A DNA stretch of 64,000 nt from Pseudomonas fluorescens HK44 (GTDB taxonomy: Bacteria > Pseudomonadota > Gammaproteobacteria > Pseudomonadales > Pseudomonadaceae): positions 1-64,000 of the forward strand of contig NZ_AFOY02000023.1 of the NCBI RefSeq assembly GCF_000217955.3, given 5' to 3'. Below the pieces are notes generated by a model, which had not been told where the DNA came from, made no database searches, and saw only the letters and a program-made list of their open reading frames with translations. The stretch's first letter is position 1. Each line of letters opens with the position of its first letter. The position numbers were made by a program, and so were the translations under genes. Shown in pieces: positions 41,225 through 49,189 of this stretch.

Positions 41225-41279
41225 TGGGCGGTCTTGCCAGCATTGCAAAGCAATCGAGGCAGGAGGATGCTGGGCGCTC

Positions 41280-41391
41280 TGTGGCGAGGGAGCTTGCTCG
41301 CGCTGGGTCGCGAAGCGGCCCCAAAATGTCTGCCGTTGATGATTTTTTGCGAGCGCTACGCACTCGAGCGGGAGCAAGCGTCCTCGCCACA
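41280..41391. repeat. REP-type palindromic pair
   Basis: Arms TGTGGCGAGGGAGCTTGCTC and the partner ending TCCTCGCCACA flank inner GGTCGCGAAGCGGCC and GAGCGCTACGCACTC. It lies in the divergent exaC/eatR gap on the eatR side. The rest of 41225-41447 shows only the eatR ribosome site. Confidence 0.8.
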
Positions 41392-41447
41392 AGGTGGTGA
41401 CAGTCCTTCATTGGGCCCAGCACAGTGTTCGGGGAGAATAATAAAAA

Positions 41448-43384: not shown

Positions 43385-43543
43385 GTGGCGAGGGGGCAAG
43401 CCCTAATGCCAGTCAGTTAAGGATGGACGCTTCCCTGTGGCGAGGGAGCTTGTCGGAACGCCGCACCGTCCCGCTGGGGCGCGAAGCGGCCCTAAAAATG
43501 GGACTGCTACGCAGTCCAGCGGGAGCAAGCTCCCTCGCCACAG
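43385..43543. repeat. Compound REP region with GTCGGAACGCCGC insert
   Basis: A lone half-element GTGGCGAGGGGGCAAGCCCT (43385-43404) is followed by a full REP pair from about 43435 to 43543. The left half of that pair again continues into GTCGGAACGCCGCACCGTCC. It lies between eatR and mpl in a 257-base gap without genes. Confidence 0.8.
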
Positions 43544-43597
43544 TGGTCGTGGTCATCTCACTAAAGAGTGCGATTTTCCCCTCCCTACGCTAACCTG

Positions 43598-44971: not shown

Positions 44972-45600
44972 GTAATGGTCCGGATCGCATCACACTGGCC
45001 ATGACCGGCGCTTCCGGCGCCCAGTACGGTTTGCGTCTGCTCGATTGTCTGGTGCGCGAAGACCGCGAGGTGCACTTCCTGATCTCCAAGGCGGCGCAAC
45101 TGGTGATGGCGACCGAGACCGACGTTACGCTGCCGCCGAAACCGCAGATGATGCAGGCCTTCCTCACCGAATACACCGGCGCGGCTGCCGGGCAGATTCG
45201 GGTGTATGGCAAGGAAGACTGGATGTCGCCGGTGGCCTCGGGCTCCGGTTCACCGGCTGCGATGGTGGTGGTGCCGTGTTCGACCGGGACCTTGTCGGCG
45301 ATTGCCACAGGCGCCTGCAACAACCTGATCGAGCGCGCCGCCGACGTGACCTTGAAAGAGCGTCGGCAATTGATTCTGGTGCCACGCGAGGCGCCATATT
45401 CAAGCATTCATCTGGAAAACATGCTCAAGCTGTCGAACATGGGCGTGACCATTCTGCCGGCCTCGCCGGGTTTCTATCACCAGCCGCAGACCATCGATGA
45501 TCTGGTGGACTTTGTCGTGGCGCGGATTCTCAATTTGTTGAACATCCCGCAAGACATGCTGCCGCGTTGGGGCGAACACCACTTGAGCAGCGATGAATAA
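44968..45600 (+). CDS. ubiX: Flavin prenyltransferase UbiX
   Basis: A 210-residue UbiX, making prenylated FMN for the UbiD decarboxylase in ubiquinone synthesis. Motifs are [18 protein letters not shown]-like at the N-terminus, [29 protein letters not shown] and [22 protein letters not shown]. The partner UbiD is not in this window. It overlaps mpl and the lipoprotein gene downstream. Confidence 0.96.
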
Positions 45601-45877
45601 GCTATTGATTCTTCTGCTTGCCCTGCAATTGGGCGGCTGTGCCACCGCACGCACATTGGACGCGGCCAAGCCAGGCGCGCCAGTGGTGTACTCGGGGATG
45701 CGCCTTGATCTGTACGCGCTGGACGGCGGTTGCTGCGCCAAGGATCATTTTGGCGCCGAAGCACCGAGCTACCCAGGCATCGACCTGCCGGCCAGCGCAC
45801 TGCTCGACACGCTGCTGTTGCCGCTGTCGGTGTTGACGGTGTTAGGGGTAGGGTTTCAGGCGACTGGCGGGTTGTAA
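45593..45877 (+). CDS. YceK/YidQ family lipoprotein
   Basis: A 94-residue lipoprotein of unknown function. The signal [19 protein letters not shown] has the lipobox LGGC at 13-16, and the rest carries [16 protein letters not shown] and [20 protein letters not shown] as in the YceK/YidQ family. Its start overlaps the ubiX stop by 8 bases, so the two are co-transcribed. A REP pair follows. Confidence 0.85.
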
Positions 45878-45894
45878 GGGCTGACGCAATCTTT

Positions 45895-46026
45895 GTGGCG
45901 AGGGAGCTTGCTCCCGCTGGGGCGCGAAGCACCCCCAAAACTTGCCGTCGTGACTCTTCAGGCAAATCGAATTGACCGGATTACGACTGCTGCGCAGCCG
46001 AGCGGGAGCAAGCTCCCTCGCCACAG
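45895..46026. repeat. REP-type palindromic pair
   Basis: Arms GTGGCGAGGGAGCTTGCTCC and its reverse complement (ending 46026) flank inner palindromes GGGGCGCGAAGCACCCCC and CTGCTGCGCAG. It lies between the convergent lipoprotein and oxidoreductase genes and may serve as a bidirectional end. Confidence 0.85.
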
Positions 46027-46047
46027 GGAACCGCGTAGCTTCGAAGG

Positions 46048-46689
46048 TTACTTGCCGAGTTTGCGTAATTCGTCGGACTCGACAATCCGCAAGCCATCCT
46101 GTTCTTCCAGCGCCAGGCGCCACATGGCTCGGGCCAGTTGGCAGGCTTCGATACCGTGGTATTTGCCGGGAATCAGTTTGGACAGCGGGCCTGCCAGTTG
46201 TTCGGCGAGTCGCGGTTCAATCCGATCACCCAGTAGCAGGGAAGGCCGGCAGATGGTCAGTTGCGGCCAGTTCTGTGCGCGCAATGCGTATTCCATCTCG
46301 CCCTTGACCCGGTTGTAGAAAACCGAGGATCTGCGATCGGCCCCCAGGGCGCTGATCACGATCAAGTGCCGTGCGCCCATTTCTCGTGCACGTTTGGCGA
46401 ACGCCACCACCAAGTCCAGATCGACTGCGCGAAAGGCTTGTTCGGAGCCGGCCTGTTTGATCGTCGTGCCCAGGCAGCAGTAGGCAATGTCGACGCGGCC
46501 ACTGAGTTGGGGGAGAAGCACCGCCGGATCGCCAACCGGGTTTTCCAGATGAGGATGTTCGGCCAGTGGTCGGCGTGACGGTGCCAGTACGCGGCTGATG
46601 GTCGGCTCGTTGAGCAGCCGATCGAGTAAGTGTTCACCGATCAGGCCGGTGGCTCCAGCGAGCAATACATGCTGAGGCGTCAAGTACAT
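46048..46689 (-). CDS. NAD(P)-binding Rossmann protein of the atypical SDR class
   Basis: A 213-residue protein of the HTATIP2/NmrA-like atypical SDR group. The nucleotide motif [19 protein letters not shown] is at the N-terminus and the segment [14 protein letters not shown] resembles the YxxxK region. There is no clear pathway clue, and neighbours on either side are unrelated. It may act as an oxidoreductase or NAD(P)H sensor. Confidence 0.8.
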
Positions 46690-46717: not shown

Positions 46718-48436
46718 TTAGTTGCTCTTTGCTTCCTTGCTGGTCAAAGCAGCACTTTGCAGTGCCTTGCGTGCTTGTTGCTTGCGCAGTAATTGCCAAT
46801 GTGCCAATACCCCTTTTGGCGCCCAGATCTGTGGTTCGGAGGCCTCGAAACTGTCTGCTAGTTCACGCTCGGCGACCGTGGCCTTGGCCAGTTTGAATGC
46901 CTGCTCCAGATCGTCGGTCTGGTTCAGCGCCTGAACGAACAACGCGTCGCCGAAGTAAGTGAAGTCTGCCTCTTCCGAGCAACCGAACGACACTCGGTCG
47001 GCGCGCGAGGCGGTCATGATCAGTGTGCGTTCGTCTTTGAGTGCCGGGATGAAACCGCCGGAGTAGCAGGCTGAAATCACGATGATCTTGTCGCGGTTTT
47101 TCAGCGGTGCGAGGACGGCGGCCAATTCGTCAGCCGGCAAGTCGGCCAGCTCCATGCGCGGTTGGTCGAGCACCAGTTCGTGTTCGTGGGTGCCGTGGCT
47201 GGTCAGGTAGACGAACACCAGATCTTCCGGCCCGCTGCGTTCGGCCAGGGTCAGGGCAGCGCGGCGCAGGTTCTCGCGCGTGGCCATCGGCCGGTCGCCA
47301 AGGTGGTCGCGATGGTTGACCAGACGGATCTGGCCATAGGCGCCGAAGCGGCTGGCGAGCATGTTGCTGACGTAATCGGACTCGCGCAGAAACACGCTCT
47401 GCTTGCCGTCGCCGCCCACGGTCAGGGTGTACAGCTCGATCGCCGGGGTCGAGGCGGGCACATTGGCCAGGGCGTCTTCGAGCAGGCGCCCTTGCGCCAG
47501 TAACCCCAGCTCGAGGGTGTCCGGCAGCAACTTGCCATTGGCATCGCGTACGCGCTGGCCATTGATCCAGTCGCCGCTTTGCACGGTGCCATCCGTCAGC
47601 ACCAGCGTGCCGTGCCCTTGATAGCTGTCGTTATCGAATTCGCCGATGTAGAAGCTGCCGTCCGCCAGGTTCAAGCGGCCTTGACCGGTGAAACGCCAAT
47701 CACTGAATTGGCCGATGTAGTGGCTGTTGTCGGCGCCGATCAGTTCGCCTTTTCCGTTCAGCGCACCTTCCTTGAACTGGCCGACCCACACGTCGCCGTC
47801 GGCGTTCTCGTAGCGGCCTCTGCCGTTCAACTGATTCTGTTTGAAACCACCGACGTAGCTGTCGCCTTCGGCGCTGCTGAAGGTGCCGTTGCCTTCCAGC
47901 TGACCGTCGACAAAAGTACCGGTGAACTGGTTGCCGCTGGCATCGCCACGCTGGCCTTCACCGTTGGGTTTGCCGTTGGCGAACTGGCCCTGATACTGGC
48001 TGCCGTCTTCAAGTTCGAGGCGGCCGAGGCCGGAATACTGATCGGCCTTGAACTCGCCACGGTAGGTCATGCCGTCTTCTTTGAGGGTGCCTTCACCGTC
48101 GCGCCGCCCGAGTTTGAAGCCGCCGGTGTAGCTGCTGCCGTTGGTGGTCAGCGTGCCCTGGCCATGAAACAGTCCCTGTTGGAATTCCCCGCGGTAAACC
48201 TCGCCGTTGCTGCCGTGCCATTCGCCCTGACCGTGCCACTGGCCCTTGTCAAACTGACCGGCGTACCAGCTGCCGTTCGGGTAGTCGATCCGGCCCTGGC
48301 CTTGCAGCAACCCATTGACCAGGTCACCCCGATAGCGGCCGCCATCGGGCAGGCGTGCGTCGGGCGGCAACAGCGATTCGCCGTCACCACACGCGGTGAG
48401 CAACAGGGTCAGGGCAAGGGGTGCAAGTGAGCGCAT
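46718..48436 (-). CDS. MORN-repeat lipoprotein with C13 (legumain-like) protease domain
   Basis: A 572-residue lipoprotein. The signal [16 protein letters not shown] ends in a lipobox with Cys16. About twelve MORN repeats, each near 23 residues (YRGEF...GLFHGQGTL type), occupy about 32-295. The C-terminal domain (about 335-545) is a C13-type peptidase: His414 in [10 protein letters not shown] and Cys457 in [16 protein letters not shown]-type context form the likely dyad. It therefore probably anchors to a lipid membrane and cuts proteins. The substrate is unknown. It stands alone between an SDR and a MaoC gene, with no inhibitor or partner adjacent. Confidence 0.88.
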
Positions 48437-48539: not shown

Positions 48540-48995
48540 TTAAACGAACGCCAGCGACAACGGTTCAGCGATGTACGCCGGTTTTTCCTGGCCTTCGATT
48601 TCCAGCGTGGCGGTGGCCTTGAGCAGCCATTGGCCGGGTTTCTTTTCGGTGACGTCGCTCAGTTCGACCTTGAGCCGGACTCTGGAGTCGACTTTCACCG
48701 GTTGAATGAAACGCACGCTGTCCAGACCGTAATTGACGACCATCTTCAAGCCTTGCGGCAGGACCAGGATGTCTTCCATCAGTTTCGGGATCAGCGACAG
48801 CGACAGGAAACCGTGGGCGATCGTGCTGCCAAACGGGGTTTGTGCGGCTTTTACCGGGTCAACGTGGATGAACTGATAATCGCCTGTAGCTTCAGCGAAC
48901 AGGTTGATGCGGTCCTGATCGATCGTGAGCCATTCGGAACGTCCGAGTTCCTTGCCGACATAATCTTTGAGCTCTGCAACGGGAACATAGGGCAT
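48540..48995 (-). CDS. MaoC-family dehydratase (hot-dog fold)
   Basis: A 151-residue hydratase of the R-enoyl-CoA hydratase 2 type. The catalytic segment FAEATGDYQFIHVDPVKAAQTPFGSTIAHGFLSLSLI contains the Asp/His pair of the hydratase motif. It starts at MPYVPVAELKDYVGKEL behind an AAGGAGA site. It may act on acyl-CoA in lipid or polyester metabolism; the exact substrate is open. Confidence 0.92.
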   Translation of the reverse strand: MPYVPVAELKDYVGKELGRSEWLTIDQDRINLFAEATGDYQFIHVDPVKAAQTPFGSTIAHGFLSLSLIPKLMEDILVLPQGLKMVVNYGLDSVRFIQPVKVDSRVRLKVELSDVTEKKPGQWLLKATATLEIEGQEKPAYIAEPLSLAFV

Positions 48996-49189
48996 TGAGA
49001 CTCTCCTTGGGTTCATCGGTTTTTTGATTTTTTCAGGTGGGGGGTTGGCCCCGGAACAACCACTTTAGATCATCATGGCGATTAGAGCCGGTCAAGTCTC
49101 CATGCCTTTGGCGAATACCCATGCATAGCGAGTGCCATGCTTATAATGTCCGGCCCGCTTGTGGGGACGAGTTTTGCTGGAGATGACGG

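Follow-up and report, generated by a model that had tools for sequence, protein, structure and literature searches.

What does a pseudomonad do with a legumain-like protease mounted on a stalk of MORN repeats? The question is raised by a gene in the window, by which we mean the whole analysed stretch of 64,000 nucleotides from Pseudomonas fluorescens HK44 (contig NZ_AFOY02000023.1, positions 1 to 64,000). The gene is an ATG-initiated open reading frame (ORF) at 46718-48436 on the minus strand. Its 572-residue product, here called MORN-C13 protein, joins a predicted lipoprotein signal, a MORN array and a C13 peptidase domain. We consider it fairly probable that this is a core, vertically inherited endopeptidase of the cell envelope, held on a stalk. 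Limited cleavage of envelope proteins would be its likeliest job. The domains, the invariant dyad, the universality in the genus sample, the constrained spacing and the modular anchors of relatives are matters of direct observation.

Catalytic domain and MORN rod

The original prediction, made from the letters alone, described a lipoprotein with Cys16, His414, Cys457, a MORN array and a C13 domain in one 572-residue chain, and both the residues and Pfam agree. Cys16 lies within LTAC, His414 within TSHG and Cys457 within SACYSG. With a score of 139.8 bits Peptidase_C13 (PF01650) lies far above its cut-off of 22.8 (E=1.5e-40), the best stretch being 400-541. MORN (PF02493) reaches 118.6 bits, where 22.5 would suffice (E=2.6e-35), and 10 stretches pass individually. 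At E<=0.001 the window's genome holds one C13 and one MORN locus, and both are this gene.

Conservation was read from two sets. The first comprises 110 proteins from the 149 sampled genomes of the genus (one from the window, 29 from close genomes and 80 from genomes that are for the most part more divergent), the second, alignment A2, comprises 41 diverse catalytic domains including the query, to which the 40 others are 31-70% identical. H414, C457, C486, S455, S483, V348, F349, R351 and E352 are identical in 110/110 genus proteins; the H414/C457 dyad, C486 and S483 are invariant in 41/41 domains of A2 as well. Loss of the His or the Cys in homologues had been named beforehand as an outcome that would speak against the protease, and it is absent from the family. 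Compared with solved structures, the A2 profile finds legumain at E=1.6e-9 and aligns H and C with the dyad of legumain, while the single window protein finds legumain at E=1e-5. In the legumain alignment the His stands in HG and the Cys in C-x-(S/A)-G context, as C13 motifs require. Because of the Pfam match and these alignments we assign the domain to C13, and the membrane-tethered C13 protease of the original prediction is backed, at the level of sequence, by lipobox and invariant dyad.

One far more distant PF01650 relative from the same class (L160) keeps the His motif and has Ser aligned at the position of the nucleophile Cys. Judged by this replacement, it is possibly a dead or divergent C13 protein.

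The number of repeats, earlier given as about twelve, is exactly twelve according to the AlphaFold2 model, and chance is excluded. The model has 24 strands between residues 34 and 298, i.e. twelve hairpins. AlphaFold2 was supplied with 40 rows for the full protein and 56 for the catalytic domain, taken from Pseudomonas and sharing 88-99% identity with the query. The mean predicted local distance difference test (pLDDT) of ten-residue blocks is 84-96 over residues 41-280 and 73-78 just beyond. Single units are 21-24 residues long, mostly 23, and together they span residues 32-305. The rod model matches MORN1 crystal structures (Foldseek, E down to 8e-22), and profile score and repeat fold both identify the array as MORN. 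Across the 110 genus proteins the mean majority-residue fraction is 0.75 in the array versus 0.84 in the C13 domain.

Could the rod bind membrane lipid directly and make the protein a lipid sensor that responds to envelope stress? The repeat's name invites this idea, as does the interaction of TbMORN1 with individual phospholipids (PMC7725318), yet we hold it to be very improbable. In the same source, MORN1 is a dimerising protein-protein module that binds neither membranes nor vesicles (PMC7725318), and the protein studied here already has a predicted lipid anchor. The earlier view of the repeats as lipid binders is therefore hard to maintain beyond those individual phospholipids. Since MORN arrays can be dimerising protein-protein modules, the rod, by analogy, probably spaces and docks, and it may pair two protease heads.

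Cysteines are scarce: the window protein has only C16, C457 and C486. Exactly two follow C16 in 109/110 genus proteins, and 40/41 domains of A2 contain exactly two (C457 and C486), as would be expected of an exported enzyme. An unlikely elaboration is that the protease is redox-gated and paired by its MORN rods. A C457-C486 disulfide, formed in an oxidising periplasm, would represent the off-state; envelope stress or a reductant such as DsbC/DsbG would release the enzyme, and the rods, by dimerising, would bring two heads together at a set height above the membrane. If this were true, pseudomonads would possess a caspase-clan stress protease in their core genome, and its P1 specificity would have switched charge within the genus (position 497 is D/E in 80 and R in 26 of 110).

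This brings us to the substrate pocket. According to the accessible part of PMC4357240, the S1 pocket of legumain is formed by Arg44, His45, Ser216 and Asp231. Among these only Ser216 is clearly kept in the genus proteins, as the invariant S483. The profile alignment sets Asp231 against position 497, which is D in 76, R in 26, E in 4, N in 3 and H in 1 of the 110 genus proteins and mostly R, D, K, E or Q in A2. The codon of residue 497 (46946-46948) thus shows a D/E to R charge reversal inside one genus. When the legumain segment, which we take to be NYRHQAD, is laid ungapped by hand on VFLRESD, Arg44 falls on L350 (L 74, M 35, K 1 of 110), a placement by hand and not by an alignment tool. Because the Asp231 position varies, even with reversal of charge, the pocket differs from the Asn-specific one of legumain, and Asn specificity should not be assumed. 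Legumain also carries a C-terminal activation peptide and LSAM prodomain (PMC4357240), whereas in the window protein, which stops at residue 572, the domain is followed by about 27 residues and such a prodomain is lacking.

Distribution, spacing and membrane

A strong match to the catalytic part is present in 149/149 Pseudomonas genomes, the window's own included (E from 1e-114 down, 66-100% identical). It is the single match in 147 of them; G022 and G061 have a second, the listed one being weak (E=3e-4). The nearest named records, P. fluorescens FW300-N2E3 and Pseudomonas sp. H3(2019), are both 99% identical over the catalytic part. Beyond the genus PF01650 becomes patchy, with 52/293 genomes in the order draw, 39/369 in the class draw and 62/398 in the phylum draw; these draws overlap with the genus and one another, and their counts include weak matches inside much larger proteins.

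Such a distribution bears on the suggestion, also made originally, of a link to defence. An anti-phage or cell-death caspase is hardly credible to us. It would draw on a weak PADLOC match named 'caspase' (E=1.5e-4; PADLOC was run on the C13 protein alone) and a weak NCBIfam match to caspase_w_EACC1 (32.1 bits versus a cut-off of 140). Against it stand the occurrence in all 149 genus genomes, the conserved neighbourhood in the genus, the predicted export and the lack of any relative in two viral-contig scans. Defence genes are expected to be patchy, mobile and accompanied by defence partners; this gene is universal in the genus sample, and the three neighbours scanned are MaoC-like, NAD-binding and DUF1375 proteins. 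We rejected the defence role on these grounds, and the gene looks like a basic component of the cell envelope instead.

The Cys of the lipobox, which follows a predicted signal peptide as in bacterial lipoproteins (LTAC16), is aligned in 108/110 genus proteins, with gaps in the other 2. The distance from this Cys to the catalytic His, followed in 105 genomes, is 398 residues in 75, 399 in 20, 400 in 2 and 397 in 1, so that 98/105 fall within 397-400. The remaining values are 405 (1 genome), 376 (2), 377 (1) and 353 (2), and none could be read in 1 genome with a disrupted frame. The length of the rod is constrained, not absolute.

Outside the genus the same catalytic core is tied to other anchors. 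A maximum-likelihood tree of 61 catalytic domains contains 37 with a MORN array, 19 with a polytopic membrane domain and 5 with a short N-terminus, labels assigned by hand-made pattern counts in place of a curated scan. A clean division between the anchor types was considered and discarded, as the tree requires 5 architecture changes over its 61 rows. It samples the Pseudomonas loci, most of which it omits together with identical catalytic domains; also omitted are L140, L176, L177 and L193 (failure of the motif pattern; L193 is on the same contig as L140), L156 and L160 (outside the range taken) and L157-L159 (without phmmer match). L140, L176, L177 and the more distant L156 retain His and Cys. 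Some MORN forms outside Pseudomonadaceae have a lipobox, others a hydrophobic N-terminal segment without one. By a crude count of hydropathy and charge, 15/19 polytopic relatives would have a periplasmic C13 domain. The common theme, as we infer it from these sequences, would be that the C13 domain is periplasmic and attached to a membrane, in polytopic forms the inner one.

In which membrane does the MORN-C13 protein itself reside? The +2 residue is G in 101/110 and D in 7 genus proteins, and +3 is acidic (D or E) in 104/110. According to PMC6469965, likely inner-membrane lipoproteins of P. aeruginosa favour acidic residues among the first five that follow Cys, and sorting in Pseudomonas is loose, without dependence on a specific residue. 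Because of the conserved acidic +3 and the membrane-embedded N-termini of relatives, the data suggest the inner membrane. A possible though rather doubtful alternative is that the lipoprotein resides in the outer membrane and its protease serves the turnover of cell-wall enzymes or of proteins of that membrane, as a single-chain counterpart of LbcA-CtpA. LbcA is indeed an outer-membrane lipoprotein with 11 tetratricopeptide repeats (TPR) that may deliver substrates to CtpA (PMC8764530, accessible part), and Gly at +2 is not the inner-membrane signal of E. coli (PMC6469965). The acidic +3 and the polytopic anchors of relatives nevertheless fit the inner membrane better.

We therefore return to the stalked endopeptidase and suggest the following course of events. 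The precursor would be exported and then lipidated at Cys16, presumably to work at the periplasmic face of the inner membrane. The MORN rod would hold the cysteine-peptidase domain with its H414/C457 dyad out into the periplasm, serving as spacer and docking surface, and may pair two protease heads by dimerisation. The putative activity would be limited proteolysis of a single envelope protein or of a small number of them.

Several observations weigh against this proposal. Firstly, the AlphaFold2 model of the catalytic domain is poor (mean pLDDT 50.3) and leaves the C13 fold unconfirmed; its best structural match, legumain, has a Z of 7.4, inside the noise range and beside unrelated folds (VIA), and Foldseek returns caspases and a metacaspase mixed with phosphoheptose isomerases, none at E<=0.001. 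Secondly, the five proteins with short spacing miss one or two whole repeats at differing places, which weakens the idea of the rod as a strict ruler. Thirdly, the topology count gives the opposite side in 4/19 polytopic relatives and calls 'cytoplasm' in 19/22 single-segment MORN forms, several with a clear lipobox. We attribute the latter calls to signal peptides that carry few charges, on which the count fails, and give it little weight. Finally, there is PA4016, the putative P. aeruginosa orthologue judged from its presumed place near mpl and ubiX. In PMC3406104, one transposon allele of PA4016 is attenuated in a delta-exoU background, while a second one, in the wild type, has no virulence defect in worms. 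In favour of the proposal, by contrast, PA4016 was quantified in an envelope proteome, where it was lower in two pump-overproducing strains, 0.19-fold and <0.05-fold (PMC7835679); within the accessible parts of both papers, PA4016 is not itself the subject. The loose sorting rules mentioned above (PMC6469965, in the part available) also leave room for the outer membrane.

A C13 enzyme could also act as a transpeptidase or ligase instead of a hydrolase and transfer a cleaved envelope protein onto an acceptor, as do glycosylphosphatidylinositol (GPI) transamidase, which we take to be another C13 member, and legumain. Besides this kinship, GPI-transamidase chains occur in the structural list (8imy, Z 6.5) and GPI transamidase is matched by profile at E=0.085. 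The structural rows are inside the noise range, and families of acceptors or sorting-signal substrates were not sought; we regard a ligase as quite improbable, even though legumain possesses ligase activity (PMC9604545, accessible part).

Gene neighbourhood and nearby repeats

The original statement that the gene lacks an adjacent partner is contradicted by a reductase-like gene, which begins just downstream of the C13 stop (Table 1) and is found on the same strand in 80/80 genus loci tested. The MaoC-like gene is on the same strand in 63/80; in the other 17, some of them short stretches, it was not found. Wider comparison used 40 loci of up to 20 kb, in 36 of which the C13 gene was recovered as an ORF (not in L161, L179, L187 and L196). 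With tblastn, reductase and MaoC genes were detected in 7/7 loci from Pseudomonadaceae and 0/33 others. Elsewhere, the clusters of neighbours found repeatedly at up to four genes from C13 are either common to near relatives or belong to two widespread oxidoreductase families, called by eye as classical short-chain dehydrogenases (4 loci) and zinc-type alcohol/quinone oxidoreductases (3 loci), at differing positions and strands. None of these was counted as a partner, although a specific link to an oxidoreductase may exist. Co-occurrence had been proposed as the way to partners: within the genus it gives a constant reductase neighbour, while in the 33 loci outside Pseudomonadaceae this gene was not found and no partner was counted. 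The reductase-like gene is a possible operon partner, in Pseudomonadaceae only, and its linkage in the genus may reflect nothing more than synteny.

Table 1. Position of the MORN-C13 gene, its parts and its neighbours in the window
Feature	Position	Strand	Remarks
Coding sequence: predicted lipoprotein signal, 12 MORN repeats, C13 peptidase domain	46718..48436	-	572 aa; ORF and Pfam
Signal peptide with lipobox LTAC	48389..48436	-	Predicted mature start Cys16 (48389-48391), then G17 D18 G19 E20
Twelve MORN repeats, residues 32-305	47522..48343	-	Predicted continuous beta-hairpin rod; Pfam, AlphaFold2, Foldseek
C13 (legumain-like, clan CD) catalytic domain, ~residues 334-545	46802..47437	-	Approximate boundaries set by eye; Pfam stretch 400-541; profile A2 to legumain
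Catalytic His414	47195..47197	-	Aligns with legumain TNHG
Catalytic Cys457	47066..47068	-	Aligns with legumain EACESG
Second invariant cysteine Cys486	46979..46981	-	SFGC motif
NAD(P)-binding reductase-like gene (NAD_binding_10/Epimerase)	46048..46689	-	Starts 28 nt downstream of C13 stop; Pfam
MaoC-like dehydratase gene	48540..49016	-	Upstream, 103 nt away; Pfam
Small lipoprotein-like ORF, DUF1375 (PF07119)	45593-45877	+	94 aa; E=1.5e-16; upstream of reductase-C13 pair; Pfam

The same region contains three copies of an element of ~125-150 nt (41264-41394, 43420-43545 and 45878-46028) with inverted arms TGTGGCGAGGGAGCTTGCTC and complement. The copies are 68-90% like the reference and fall in three direct-repeat families; those at 43420-43545 and 45878-46028 are intergenic. 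It resembles a REP-type element of Pseudomonas.

Significance and relation to known systems

Proteases of clan CD (caspases, legumain, separase, gingipains) are known above all as eukaryotic regulatory cutters or bacterial virulence factors. A C13 enzyme in every sampled Pseudomonas genome, with invariant active site and constrained stalk, implies a basic cleavage event in the envelope, and no paper that we found names it. No paper on a bacterial MORN-C13 protein was found in the open-licence literature, a scope that most subscription papers fall outside. As far as found, the protein is real, conserved and uncharacterised. Across the class one catalytic core is combined with either a MORN rod or a polytopic domain, and this modularity of the anchor provides a natural experiment for locating the substrate. 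Moreover, P. fluorescens FW300-N2E3 is presumably a strain with public genome-wide fitness data, which would make a quick search for partners possible.

How does the protein compare with systems already described? With legumain it shares the Pfam family, the aligned HG and C motifs, an SFGC/SYAC segment and the invariant Ser216 equivalent S483. Unlike legumain, it leaves no room for an LSAM prodomain, varies at the Asp231 equivalent and has a MORN stalk and a predicted lipid anchor. GPI transamidase is a C13 member at a membrane too, a eukaryotic multi-subunit enzyme. The likeness to its PIG-K/GPI8 subunit is a weak profile match (E=0.085), and no partner subunits were recognised beside the window protein.

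The setting of TbMORN1 is cytoskeletal. TbMORN1 consists solely of MORN repeats (PMC7725318, accessible part), whereas the array described here is joined to a protease and predicted to be exported. The repeat fold is the same as in MORN1 of Trypanosoma, Toxoplasma and Plasmodium (Foldseek E down to 8e-22).

CtpA of P. aeruginosa is a protease of serine type. In LbcA-CtpA, a repeat-rich lipoprotein works with an envelope protease (PMC8764530, in part available), much as we propose for the MORN-C13 protein. That system consists of two proteins, a TPR spiral and a C-terminal processing protease; here one chain would unite a MORN rod with a cysteine protease. LbcA-CtpA can thus be taken, by analogy and not by membership, as a precedent for a repeat lipoprotein and a protease acting together in the pseudomonad envelope.
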